34,061 bases of DNA, from contig LFSE01000083.1 in NCBI GenBank assembly GCA_001513075.1, forward strand, positions 1 to 34,061, read 5' to 3'. Position 1 is the first letter of the stretch. Each line of letters starts with the position of its first letter. The position numbers and the translations under genes are program-made. Below are positions 9,149 to 20,657 of this stretch, piece after piece. This DNA is from Clostridiales bacterium DTU074. GTDB lineage: Bacteria > Bacillota > Clostridia > Caldicoprobacterales > Caldicoprobacteraceae. The notes beneath the pieces are model-generated. The model saw only the letters and a program-made list of their open reading frames with translations, searched no databases and was not told where the DNA came from.

Positions 9149-11122
9149 TTATTCAGCCTGTATCAAATAATACATGGATGCAAACTCCTTGCCTAGTTTG
9201 AATTTAAAAACTCCGTCTTCATATGTGGAGGGGACAACTCCCGCGAAGAATCCTTCCGCATTGACCGACCACACCCTTAATGTTTTCAGTTCAGTTTTCA
9301 GTGCTATATCCACCTCTATAGCCTCTATTAATATTGGAGGTCGTCCGACGTCCAACATTCTGTTGCGCTCCTTATTGAACTTCATATCGGTGTTTTCGGA
9401 TCTTCCAACGGCCGTCAGCAATATATTATCGGAGAGGTGTAAAGGCTTATCGGTCAATGAGCTCAGGGCAATTGTGGCAAAATCGGTCTTAACCTCAAAG
9501 CTGACCCCATTCAGTTCAAGCCGTGGTACGTTGCCCACAAAGCCGTATATTGCTTTCGTCCGCTCGCTGTCAATCCAGCCGATTCCCTTCTCCCAGCTTC
9601 TATATGTTTCCCCCGTGTCGGATAACACTTCTCCCTTATCGTCTTTCACAACCTTCTCGCCCGGCAATATGATATTCTTTTCAATCTCCCCCGCTGCTTC
9701 CTCAAAACACATACCAACCTTGTGTCTTTCGGCAATCAAACTCAAAGCCGGAATTTCTCCCGGAGTGAGAGCCATATCATCCACCATTATTTCATAGCTT
9801 TCCTTTGCACACTTTATATCTCCCCTTCTGAGCAGCAGAGCGCAATGATAAAAGAGACCGAATTTGGCCGGGTCGTTCCATGTAGTAAATACCCCTTCCC
9901 TATAGGGAACGCTCCCGATGGCTCTGGAGCTTATTTCCTTGCCAGTTATATCAATATCCTTACGTGAGGTATAAGCGTAGGTGTGAATAGCAAAGCCCGA
10001 CCAGTTTTGCAACGCGCCTACAGCAGCCAGATAGATGGGGCTTTCGGCCCGCCATTCATTTGGCCAGGGCATATCCCACTCGGATACGAAAAACGGCCTA
10101 TTTAGCTTTCTTTGGAATGAAAAGGAAGGCAGCATTGCGTCGACTTCCCGAACCATGGGTTTGTTCATAAACTCTTTTACATCTTCCTGCCACTTCCAAC
10201 CATACCAATATGCATGCCCGTCATCAAAATCAGTAACGGATTGGGCCTTTCTGTTTGCTGCATTTACAGCCCAATTGGTACCCGTTATCGGGATCTTCAC
10301 CCCTATATCCCGCAAATGCTGGATCATCTCCTTATAATAGCTCTCCTGAACATGGATTAAGAATTCGATCATAACAGGATCTCCCGAAGAATAATCTATC
10401 TCTCCTTTAGGAATGTCCAAGCCCCTTTCTTCAAGCCATTCACAGTACATCTTATCAAGCTGTTTTTTGTAATAGGGAATCGTTACAGGGCGGCTGAACA
10501 TATCCCCTTCATTTATTATCTCTGCAACGGCTATCGCCGGATCATCCTTATATGCAAGGCCGGTATACGGATTGATATGGGTCCACAGATCGTAGTTGAA
10601 CTTCTTTTGCAGCTCTATCAGCCGTCTGTCAAACAGGCAATAAGGCCTGGCTGCATCCTGGAGCTGGTGGGCAGCATAAACCCCGTCTCCCGTCTTAAAT
10701 TTTCTATACGTGAGCATATCCATATATATGTATATACCCTCGTTCTTTAGACAATATATCAGATAGTCAAGCCTCTTCATGCTCTCGGGATCAAAGCTTA
10801 AAGTGTTGCCCTTCCTCTGCCCCTTTGAGAATTGAAATATATTAGGGGTTGCCCACTCTGCATCCATCTGATGAAATCTCACAATGTTGATACCTATCTT
10901 GGCCAGTCTTTTAGCGATCTTTTCGCTGAAATCGAAGGGTGGAAAATTCAGTCCGCTGTTAAAATTAGTTCCCCAAAATACGGCCTTTGTCCCATCTTCA
11001 AATACGAAATTCTCGCCATCCACCTTCAAAAAGCCGTGCTTTCCGGCCGGTTTTTCCCTGTCAAATACAAAGGAAATATCAATGGGCACATCGTCCCAAT
11101 AAAACGGATACGGTATGAACAT
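9149..11122 (-). CDS. Clan GH-A (GH5-like) glycoside hydrolase
   Basis: A 657-residue protein with no signal peptide. Residues about 50-400 look like a GH-A (beta/alpha)8 barrel: FWGTNFN near 49, GINIVRFHQMD near 77, AEIINEGD with the presumed acid/base Glu205 after Asn, and FFVSEWDMPWPNEWR with the presumed nucleophile Glu348. The last 200 residues look like beta-sandwich. The layout matches GH5-type or unclassified GH-A enzymes (mannanase, glucosidase or galactanase-like); the subfamily cannot be read by eye. The ATG at 11122 has GGGGTGA at about eight bases. It begins 17 bases after the ceramidase-fold gene and is transcribed with it and with GH38, so action on the same imported glycan is expected. 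Confidence 0.83.
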   Translation of the reverse strand: MFIPYPFYWDDVPIDISFVFDREKPAGKHGFLKVDGENFVFEDGTKAVFWGTNFNSGLNFPPFDFSEKIAKRLAKIGINIVRFHQMDAEWATPNIFQFSKGQRKGNTLSFDPESMKRLDYLIYCLKNEGIYIYMDMLTYRKFKTGDGVYAAHQLQDAARPYCLFDRRLIELQKKFNYDLWTHINPYTGLAYKDDPAIAVAEIINEGDMFSRPVTIPYYKKQLDKMYCEWLEERGLDIPKGEIDYSSGDPVMIEFLIHVQESYYKEMIQHLRDIGVKIPITGTNWAVNAANRKAQSVTDFDDGHAYWYGWKWQEDVKEFMNKPMVREVDAMLPSFSFQRKLNRPFFVSEWDMPWPNEWRAESPIYLAAVGALQNWSGFAIHTYAYTSRKDIDITGKEISSRAIGSVPYREGVFTTWNDPAKFGLFYHCALLLRRGDIKCAKESYEIMVDDMALTPGEIPALSLIAERHKVGMCFEEAAGEIEKNIILPGEKVVKDDKGEVLSDTGETYRSWEKGIGWIDSERTKAIYGFVGNVPRLELNGVSFEVKTDFATIALSSLTDKPLHLSDNILLTAVGRSENTDMKFNKERNRMLDVGRPPILIEAIEVDIALKTELKTLRVWSVNAEGFFAGVVPSTYEDGVFKFKLGKEFASMYYLIQAE

Positions 11123-11139
11123 AAGTCATTCACCCCATA

Positions 11140-12639
11140 CTATTTATCATAGATTTCCTTTAATGTCTTTACCGTCTCGTCCACCAATTGCTGGCCACCT
11201 TCCGGTGAAACCAAATTGCAGAACATACAGGCACTATAGCCCTTTCCGGCTACCCCTCTTTCAGTAGCCAAGTAGGTTCCGCCTTCCTCCCCCGACGTAC
11301 CCGCAAGCTGGATTACAAAAGTTTGTACAAAAGGAGAACGGGCTTGAATCCTGTGCATATAATCCATATACAGTTCAAAACAGTTTGTGGAAAAGGCTAT
11401 TTCCCCCAGCCTGACCACATGCAGCTCCATTGGAAATGTCGGTTCCTTATCCTGTTTTTCATAGCGATCTATAATTTCCCTGAACCTGTTTTTTTGAGCT
11501 TCAAATGAGGATATTTCAGATATCAGCTCGATGGGTGAGACGCCTTCAGTTTTTGGTGCAGCCTTCTCCAATCGTTCCAGGCTTTCCTTTGCAAACTCGA
11601 GTTCTTCATCGGTAATTCTTCGCTTTGCAAGCTGAACGGTTTTTACCTCATGTACCAAAGGCACCTCGGTCTTTATATCCTTCCTGGCCCAGCTCAACAC
11701 CTCATCAAAGGCCTCTGAAATCCGCTGTGCTATATCCTTTCTTGCCGCGTTTTCCACTCCGATTTCTCCATACTTCAGTCTAAAACGCCTGTCCTGTGCA
11801 GCCCGATAGTGCAGAATCCTTGGAGCTAAATCGCCGGCAGCGGCGCATTGCGGCAATATATGAATATCTCCGTATTTTTCACAAATTGCTTCTCGGACGT
11901 CATGCCAGTAATCGGCTGAAAGCTTGTATTCATGTTCAGAATTCTGTGAGGGACATGGCACGTTGATAACAGCTCCGGTCAGATTATTGTCTTCATCAAA
12001 TGTATACAGAAGGTTTATAAAATGATCCGCTCCGGCTTCGTAATGGCTGAAATTGTCATCGTTAGTATTGCCGTACATCTTTGCATGGCCGTCTATCATG
12101 TATCCGCTGACCGAACCACCCCGCTGCGAAATGTCGTCAAAATACACCACGCGACGGCTATGGCCCACAACTGCGTATCCATAACCGTATGCAATTCCGC
12201 CCTCGGAGCGTTTCTCGTAAGCTTCGCAGATAGCGTCCGCACATTGGGATACAAGGAAAGCACGGTATTCAAGGCTTGATGCCAACTCAATCTCTGCATC
12301 GGCTAATTGGGCTTTATCCAGTATTTTGCCGACATCATAATCATAATATGAAGCGCCGGTGTGGGTATGGGTTGCATTCATAATTATCTTTTCGGTGGGA
12401 ATATCGGGATTTTGCTTTTCAACCGCCGCTCTTACATCATCCAATAATCTGTTGCGAATTGCAACCAGATCAACCGACAGAAAGACTACAATATCCCGAC
12501 CATCATCCAGAACCAACGCATTTGCCAATAATGGAGCCCGCACACCCTGGGAAATCCTCATATAGAATTGGCCAGGTATGTTTACCGGTTTGTCGGTACT
12601 GATATCCCTTGTAGCCCACCCGATTTTTAATCTTTGCAT
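11140..12639 (-). CDS. Neutral/alkaline ceramidase N-domain-like protein
   Basis: A 499-residue protein resembling the catalytic domain of neutral/alkaline non-lysosomal ceramidase: a start like KIGWATRDIS, VFLSVDLVA near residue 52, and the zinc-site signature NATHTHTG (His91, His93) with a further QNSEHEYK segment. True ceramidases are about 650-750 residues, secreted, and carry a C-terminal Ig-like domain. This protein lacks both that domain and any signal peptide, so hydrolysis of membrane ceramide is unlikely. An amide or ester hydrolase for a sugar conjugate is an attractive alternative, but that is inference. The ATG at 12639 is preceded by GGGGAGGA at close spacing. It follows GH38 by 93 bases and precedes the GH-A gene by 17. 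Confidence 0.8.
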   Translation of the reverse strand: MQRLKIGWATRDISTDKPVNIPGQFYMRISQGVRAPLLANALVLDDGRDIVVFLSVDLVAIRNRLLDDVRAAVEKQNPDIPTEKIIMNATHTHTGASYYDYDVGKILDKAQLADAEIELASSLEYRAFLVSQCADAICEAYEKRSEGGIAYGYGYAVVGHSRRVVYFDDISQRGGSVSGYMIDGHAKMYGNTNDDNFSHYEAGADHFINLLYTFDEDNNLTGAVINVPCPSQNSEHEYKLSADYWHDVREAICEKYGDIHILPQCAAAGDLAPRILHYRAAQDRRFRLKYGEIGVENAARKDIAQRISEAFDEVLSWARKDIKTEVPLVHEVKTVQLAKRRITDEELEFAKESLERLEKAAPKTEGVSPIELISEISSFEAQKNRFREIIDRYEKQDKEPTFPMELHVVRLGEIAFSTNCFELYMDYMHRIQARSPFVQTFVIQLAGTSGEEGGTYLATERGVAGKGYSACMFCNLVSPEGGQQLVDETVKTLKEIYDK

Positions 12640-16862: not shown

Positions 16863-18572
16863 TTACTTCTTATACTTAAAATCATATGCATCCTGATATA
16901 TCTGAATGAATCTTTCTAAGTTCATGTCTTCCAAGGTCTTCAGATAGGTTTCCCATTCTGTCTCCAAATCAGCATCTCCTGTGATAAATCTGGCATTCAT
17001 CTGTTTCACATAATCAAGAATTGTTGCTTCCAGATCAGCCAGCTCGCTGGATTGCTCTTCAGAAAATACCAATGGAGGCAGAACCTCGGTATAATCCGGC
17101 CTGTAGGGTTCGTACAGTTTGGTTGCATCAAATAATATCTTTTCCAAAGGCTACTCGGGATCGTAGACCTCACTCAGACGGAAGTGAGCTGTACGAGCCT
17201 GCGGTCCGCTCTGATACCAGCATTCATTCTGAACAGTCTCGGTCCATGGTACGAGGAGTTTATACAAGCCTGCTTCGCCGTGGAGTCCAATTTCATCATC
17301 TGTTGCCCATCGCCATTCTTGATCAAGTCTGCCGAATATGGAGCGCAGCATGGCTTCCAGTTCGTACATGCCGTCGATCCATTTGAATGCAACTACGGGC
17401 TCTGCACATTTATTTGTAATTACCGTGTCAAAACCGGTCATATAAGGATCATAAAAACATGTCGGTTTTGTGCCTTCCGGCCCTTGGAGGGGCGGAACTA
17501 TTACATATTCCAGCCAGCGACCGCTTTCGCCATAGAATTGTGCAAAAACACCGCTGTGTCCCCCTACAGCCGAGCCCAGAATCGGGATATCCGGATTCTC
17601 TCCCATCTGACGGTATTGATCTTCATCCTGGGTAAACGACTCGGGGCTTATCAGTTCTTCTGCATACAGATCTCTCAAATACTTAAGCCCTTCCTTCCAC
17701 TCGGGTTTGTTAAAGGTCACATCAATTTTTCCATCTTTTATTACCATATTTCTGTTATTATCACAATAGATAAAGGAACACATAAAGAAGCCAGGAAGCT
17801 GAGCATGCCATCCGCTGGTGGCAGCAGCAAGAGGAATTTCGTCTGCCTTCCCGTTGCCATTGGGATCCTGGGTTTTGAAAGCGCGTAAAACATCCCTATA
17901 TTCATCCAATGTTTTTGGAACCTCAAGTCCGAGAGCATCCAGGAACGGCTGGTAAATCCACAGCTTCTGTGCCATAGAGCAGTGATAACACTCGTTAATA
18001 TCCGGCATAGCATAAATGTTGCCATCAGGAAATGTCAAAACATCTTTAACATATGCCATACTTTCCTCTTCAAAAATCTTCTTAATCTCAAAACCGTGTT
18101 CTTCAATCAAATCGTTTAGTGGTATAAACATACCTTCAGAACCGAAAGACATTATCTGCGAAGCCGATAAGCCGGCACTCATAATAATGTCAGGGTAATC
18201 TCCTGAAGATAGAATCAAGTTCAGTTTTTCGTCCCCGCCTTTTACAGGCAAAACTTCAAATTCTGCGTGTACATTGGTTTTCTCCTCATACCATTTTGTA
18301 AATGAGTTGGTGTTGAAATCCTCAACTGCAGGGTTGCCACCAATTAATACGGTAAGCGTGACCTTTTCCTCTACAATAGGAAATTGGCCAGGTCCCGATA
18401 CTTTGGCACCGCCAGGAGACACCTCCTCACCCGTCTCATCACCGGTTTTGGCTTCCTCCCCCGATGATGGTTCCTGGGCAACATCTTCGGTTTCCTTGCT
18501 TCCGCCGCAGCCGGCAAAAAGCAGTGCCAGTACAAGGCATAAGGAAATGAACAGCAGTAAGCTTCTTTTCAT
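16863..18572 (-). pseudogene. Sugar ABC transporter substrate-binding lipoprotein, split by an in-frame amber codon
   Basis: A binding protein for an oligosaccharide ABC transporter (LplA-type), expected to be anchored outside the membrane. The signal peptide (MKRSLLLF then hydrophobic to residue 18) ends in the lipobox LFAGC with Cys22, followed by a Gly/Ser/Glu-rich linker. Family-like segments include VTLTVLIGGNPAVEDF, DLIEEHGFEIKK and ALGLEVPKTLDEYRDV. Reading stops at a TAG at 17151-17153 after 473 codons, but the same frame continues for 95 codons to 16863 with clearly related sequence (LYEPYRPDYTEVLPP, NLERFIQIYQDAY). The joined product would be about 569 residues, the usual family length. 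A single change from TGG or CAG would create this TAG. The AAGGAGG site supports the start. It is either a genuine nonsense mutation, a sequencing error or readthrough. TAG is used as a normal stop by several neighbours, so general recoding is unlikely. Confidence 0.85.
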
Positions 18573-19598: not shown

Positions 19599-20567
19599 CT
19601 ACCATAAACTGCTATCGCTTGTTTTTTTGGCGATCCTGTTCACTACTACAATTAAAAATAAGTTTACAACCGATTTAAATAATCCTACGGCTGTTGGATA
19701 GGAATAGTTTATTGTTTTGGATGCCAGACCCACCTTGTACACATAGGTATCTATTACTTCCGATGTTCTTGTATTCATCGGATTCTGCATAAGCAGTATT
19801 TTTTCAAAGCCGGTATTTAAAATCTGCCCGGTACTGAGTATCAGCAATATAACCGCAGTTGGTATAATCCCAGGCAAATCTATATACCATATTCTCTGAA
19901 ATTTGTTTGCTCCATCTACAATTGCAGCTTCATGTAATGTTGGATCTATAGACGATAAGGCTGCCAAATATATAATAGCTCCGTAACCCGTGCCCTGCCA
20001 TATACCGGACCATACATATACAGATTTGAAGTATTCCGGGACTCCCATAAAGTTTACCCTGTCCAAACCCATGATCTCTCTTATTACATTAATAATGCCT
20101 ACTCTGGGCGACAGGAATTGCAGCACCATGCTAACCATGACTACCGTTGAAATGAAATAAGGAGCATAGGTCACCATTTGGACCGTTTTTTTAAAGTACG
20201 CATTGCGCGTATAGTTCAACATGATGGCTAATATTATTGGAAAAGGAAAGCCGGCTACCAGACTATATATGCTGATTCCCAGGGTATTTTTCATCAGGTT
20301 CAGAAAATCATGGGAGTTAAAAAAGCGCTCAAAGTGTTTAATTCCCACCCACGGACTGCTTGTAATTCCATCAGTAATGCGAAAATCCCTGAAAGCAATT
20401 TGAGCTCCATACATCGGATAATATTTAAAGATAATTATATAAAGAAGAGGCAATAAAAAAAGCACATATAGCTGCCAGCATTTGAAGAATCGCATCTTCA
20501 AATCGGAGAGCCAGGTTCTCTTCCTTTGCCTATAATATAGGTCTGACTGAATTCCTTTCTTAATCAT
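19599..20567 (-). CDS. Sugar ABC transporter permease (LplB type)
   Basis: An inner-membrane permease of about 320 residues, first gene of the transporter operon. Transmembrane segments begin near residue 40 (WQLYVLFLLPLLYIIIF), followed by the family-typical YYPMYGAQIAFRDF and the EAA loop HEAAIVDGANKFQRIWY near residue 225. The end VVVNRIAKKTSDSSLW is also typical. The frame opens at a TTG at 20594 that has no ribosome site. The ATG at 20567 is my preferred start, although its AAAGGTG is further away than usual. A strong-looking promoter lies at 20658-20686. Substrate is not readable; the neighbourhood suggests mannose-containing oligosaccharides. Confidence 0.92.
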   Translation of the reverse strand: MIKKGIQSDLYYRQRKRTWLSDLKMRFFKCWQLYVLFLLPLLYIIIFKYYPMYGAQIAFRDFRITDGITSSPWVGIKHFERFFNSHDFLNLMKNTLGISIYSLVAGFPFPIILAIMLNYTRNAYFKKTVQMVTYAPYFISTVVMVSMVLQFLSPRVGIINVIREIMGLDRVNFMGVPEYFKSVYVWSGIWQGTGYGAIIYLAALSSIDPTLHEAAIVDGANKFQRIWYIDLPGIIPTAVILLILSTGQILNTGFEKILLMQNPMNTRTSEVIDTYVYKVGLASKTINYSYPTAVGLFKSVVNLFLIVVVNRIAKKTSDSSLW

Positions 20568-20657
20568 AGGTATTGTTTTCACACCTTTCTTCAATACTAC
20601 TTAATTATTAATATGCCAGTATTTGATAATTATTTGACGCTTGTTGATGTCAATTTC

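Follow-up and report, generated by a model that had tools for sequence, protein, structure and literature searches.

An in-frame TAG, most likely a recent nonsense mutation, in the binding-protein gene of a carbohydrate ABC importer of Clostridiales bacterium DTU074

A published survey describes in-frame stop codons as widespread in bacterial genes and, for the most part, as young as population polymorphisms; carbohydrate transport and metabolism is one of the categories richest in them, and the survey's worked example is a TAG/CAG site from Paenibacillus (Belinky et al. 2021, PMC7918605). The solute-binding lipoprotein gene described here resembles those cases in that a single stop interrupts an otherwise conserved carbohydrate-transport gene, and it has the same probable CAG/TAG pair as the Paenibacillus example; it differs in that its stop is known from one genome only. 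The closest described proteins are FusA (5g5y), Blon_2347 (6fth), AlgQ2 (1kwh) and the LplA-like lipoproteins of Bacillota, with which the protein shares family, length, lipobox, fold and C-terminal helices, and LplA-like systems of the SBP_bac_1 family (PF01547) have two adjoining permease genes, as does this locus. Compared to these relatives, the present gene alone carries an in-frame TAG at codon 474. An in-frame TAG followed by a continuing frame is also found in pyrrolysine and suppressor-tRNA systems; however, this genome has neither a pyrrolysyl-tRNA synthetase (PylS) nor a CTA-anticodon tRNA, TAG is widely used as a stop and, unlike in pyrrolysine systems, the codon occupies a variable, non-catalytic loop position. 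The gene is a case of a known kind, and nothing about it is categorically new.

The window, i.e. the whole stretch of DNA that was analysed, comprises 34,061 nucleotides (contig LFSE01000083.1), and the features of the locus are as follows.

16863..18572, minus strand: lipoprotein gene (SBP_bac_1; LplA/FusA/AlgQ2-like) for the solute-binding component of a carbohydrate ABC transporter, with one in-frame TAG
17151..17153, minus strand: codon 474, a premature in-frame TAG that was probably once CAG (Gln); it lies in a variable loop that precedes helix 476-490
16863..17150, minus strand: distal 95 codons and TAA, undecayed; encodes the final four helices of the fold and keeps every family-invariant residue
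18672..19580, minus strand: intact permease gene (BPD_transp_1), YtcP/LplC-like by position and size
19599..20594, minus strand: intact permease gene (BPD_transp_1), LplB-like by position and size, ending in TAG

The binding-protein gene starts at ATG 18572, with a Shine-Dalgarno sequence (AGGAGG) just 5' of it, and runs for 473 codons to TAG 17153-17151, after which the same frame continues for 95 further codons to TAA 16865-16863, giving 569 amino acids when the TAG is read as a residue; the original prediction had these coordinates and lengths right. The ordinary product loses residues 474-569, the C-terminal helical region, and is in this respect not a complete solute-binding protein. It has the profile match of an SBP_bac_1, LplA-type lipoprotein (PF01547, 3.5e-15), a lipoprotein signal with a lipobox (..FAGC) whose C22 is invariant across homologues, and a type I solute-binding fold. 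The single stop is the only lesion in the gene, which contains zero frameshifts. The tail is coding sequence: the probability of 95 stop-free codons in its frame was 0.0012 by shuffling of the tail's bases, and the coding score per codon was 0.26 in the tail versus 0.14 in the part upstream of the TAG, while the tail region scored negative in the other five frames.

To place the stop in its family, the protein was compared with its 13 closest Bacillota homologues, from Paenibacillus, Cohnella and Ammoniphilus (45-52% identical), and with one Oscillospiraceae relative (31%); no close orthologue was found in genomes of the same genus. None of these 14 sequences has a stop at the position of codon 474, so that the stop is premature relative to intact homologues, and the possibility, raised in the original prediction, that related proteins normally end here was rejected, since the homologues run through. 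Nearly all of them close with a C-terminal motif like ..MNLERFIQIYQDAYDFKYKK of the DTU074 protein, one (L039) adding a short extension. The tail is 50-65% identical to the 13 homologues, against 47-55% for residues 60-473, and it retains the family-invariant residues F529, W540, Y543, L547, Q560, A562 and Y563. Since tail identity is not below that of the rest of the protein, the lesion appears young, and no decay or further lesions of the kind that mark an old pseudogene were found in the tail beyond the TAG. Such an undecayed tail fits a recent event, a sequence error or read-through; an old pseudogene does not fit. The column of codon 474 is variable in the homologues (Q, N, D, K, E, P, M, T and A). 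Of the two one-base origins that had been proposed, CAG is supported, because Gln occupies this column in two homologues and Trp, which TGG would require, in none; a change from CAG to TAG is thus the likeliest single substitution.

In the structure predicted for the read-through protein (pLDDT 85, pTM 0.80), the TAG codon falls within a loop directly before four C-terminal helices (476-490, 505-531, 536-549 and 552-567; pLDDT about 85-98). A Foldseek comparison matched this model to 5g5y with an E value of 2.3e-34 and a TM score of 0.72 by query length, and the match to FusA of S. pneumoniae, Blon_2347 and AlgQ2 extends nearly end to end, so these solved relatives contain the tail. Because the tail is conserved, keeps its invariant residues and is predicted to supply the final four helices of the FusA/AlgQ2 fold, we infer that loss of these helices should inactivate the binding protein. 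It is therefore very improbable that the 473-residue product works as a shortened binding protein, even though the SBP_bac_1 match ends at residue 403, ahead of the TAG codon, since the tail belongs to the structured fold and is present with its invariant residues in all homologues. Separate re-initiation of the tail, for which a TTG (17147) lies 3 bases past the stop, belongs to the same very improbable reading, as no Shine-Dalgarno-like sequence precedes this TTG and a separate tail would be without a signal peptide.

Whether TAG could be decoded in this organism was addressed at the level of the genome. None of the 48 tRNA genes found by covariance search had a CTA anticodon (anticodons read by ARAGORN), which rejects a suppressor tRNA, nor did any of 17 tRNA matches in the same-genus genome G001. 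The pyrrolysyl-tRNA synthetase profile TIGR02367 gave only weak background below the cut-off in the organism's own genome and exceeded the cut-off in one control genome; with neither PylS nor a CTA-anticodon tRNA, pyrrolysine decoding was rejected. Release factor RF1 was found (555 bits), so loss of RF1 was rejected as well. The claim of the original prediction that TAG is a genuine stop here, based on a kinase-linked Gfo/Idh gene, a lacI gene and an esterase gene ending in it (gene ends at 1755, 6841 and 8189), holds beyond these three: of the 20 other genes listed for the window, 9 terminate in TAG, as do 51 of the 221 long genes (23%) in a 421 kb sample. This sample, about 16% of the genome, was also screened for neighbouring coding segments in the same frame, which yielded 30 pairs. 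Nine of these were checked by Pfam and proved to be ordinary adjacent genes, such as GatC/GatA and DAHP synthase/prephenate dehydrogenase, and the remainder were judged on start-codon position alone; in this screen no other gene was seen in which a single family spans a stop, the binding-protein gene being the sole case. Genome-wide reassignment of TAG was therefore rejected, RF1 being present, TAG a common terminator and no other family-split gene apparent in the 421 kb.

Low or regulated read-through by near-cognate decoding, yielding little full-length protein, would account for an undecayed tail under apparent constraint and suits a site that tolerates many residues. The TAG is followed by C, which is a leaky context in E. 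coli. Read-through of this sort has been proposed for some in-frame stops of bacteria, and Belinky et al. (PMC7918605) argue that it is frequent. Even so, this explanation is unlikely: the genome has RF1 and no suppressor tRNA or PylS, the stop is common to no homologue, RNA structure downstream of it is not unusual (z -0.65 and -0.84), and a young mutation accounts for the intact tail without read-through. Programmed read-through, in which the stop is kept among orthologues and accompanied by RNA structure, was rejected on the same grounds, no orthologue having the stop and no stimulatory structure standing out; there were also no Rfam elements in the window. The gene is a useful control case: an in-frame TAG and a conserved tail behind it are not in themselves evidence of recoding.

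Read-through by a dedicated system is not supported, and the main contenders among the three options originally proposed are a disabled (or polymorphic) gene and a base-calling error. The stop is most likely a recent nonsense mutation or a polymorphism within the population, with a base-calling or consensus error as the main rival. The assembly is a draft (138 contigs, contamination estimated at 2%), in which an error of sequencing or consensus calling would be indistinguishable from a real mutation. If the TAG were an error of sequencing, assembly or consensus, cells would have a sense codon at this position (probably CAG) and an intact transporter; the otherwise perfect gene, its undecayed tail and its intact operon partners are all consistent with this. 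The commonest assembly errors, however, are indels in homopolymers and not single-base substitutions, and TAG 17151-17153 does not lie within a homopolymer. Moreover, no other gene was split in this way in 421 kb, which argues that errors of this kind are not rife in the assembly, and we regard an error as possible but rather unlikely. Either way, the in-frame TAG looks like an ordinary one-letter mutation or a draft error, not a new reading of the code.

We consider it probable that a recent nonsense mutation, real in the cells and most probably CAG to TAG, disrupts the binding protein of a carbohydrate ABC importer that is intact in its other parts. A C to T change at the first codon position would turn CAG into TAG, translation would halt at codon 474, and the product, without the four C-terminal helices, would probably misfold or be degraded. 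The importer would then be inactive, or work at a much lower level, throughout the lineage or in those members of the population with the altered base. The importance of this is modest: one importer in the genome is marked as probably inactive or polymorphic. At least 10 other related binding-protein genes are present in the genome, so loss of one would be tolerable, with the class kept; one of these others, on contig C105, is likewise broken.

A same-genus genome contains another solute-binding protein gene with one in-frame TAG (L010 on G001:C188, positions 2074-2076 of L010), in the context ..NLRLW*DAGSPKLETFEDLY.. and with a long conserved frame beyond it; both gene and TAG position differ from those in the window. 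Because each of these two genes has one in-frame TAG and an undecayed downstream frame, it is conceivable that the genus keeps in-frame TAGs in some sugar-binding protein genes as a leaky expression valve, a reading to which we give very little credence. A stop inside the PF01547 match was found in one of about 95 matches (7 genomes), a count that overlooks stops outside the profile match, such as the window's own TAG, and systematic TAG interruption of binding-protein genes across the genus was rejected on this count.

The surroundings of the locus form a carbohydrate-use cluster with a GH38 alpha-mannosidase, a GH2 enzyme, a xylose-isomerase-like barrel protein, an AraC regulator, FGGY kinases, an arabinose-isomerase-like protein and an MGH1-like hydrolase. 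The open reading frame of the 19599..20594 permease begins with TTG, which may not be the true start. Also in this cluster, a 657-amino-acid protein (window 9149-11122) had no Pfam or NCBIfam match, and a 499-amino-acid protein adjoining the GH38 alpha-mannosidase gene (window 11140-12639) had no NCBIfam match and only a sub-threshold match to a neutral ceramidase N-terminus. Elsewhere in the same genome, a second broken solute-binding protein gene (L059 on G000:C105, about 875-2403) is split by a frameshift and seems to have lost some of its 5' region.
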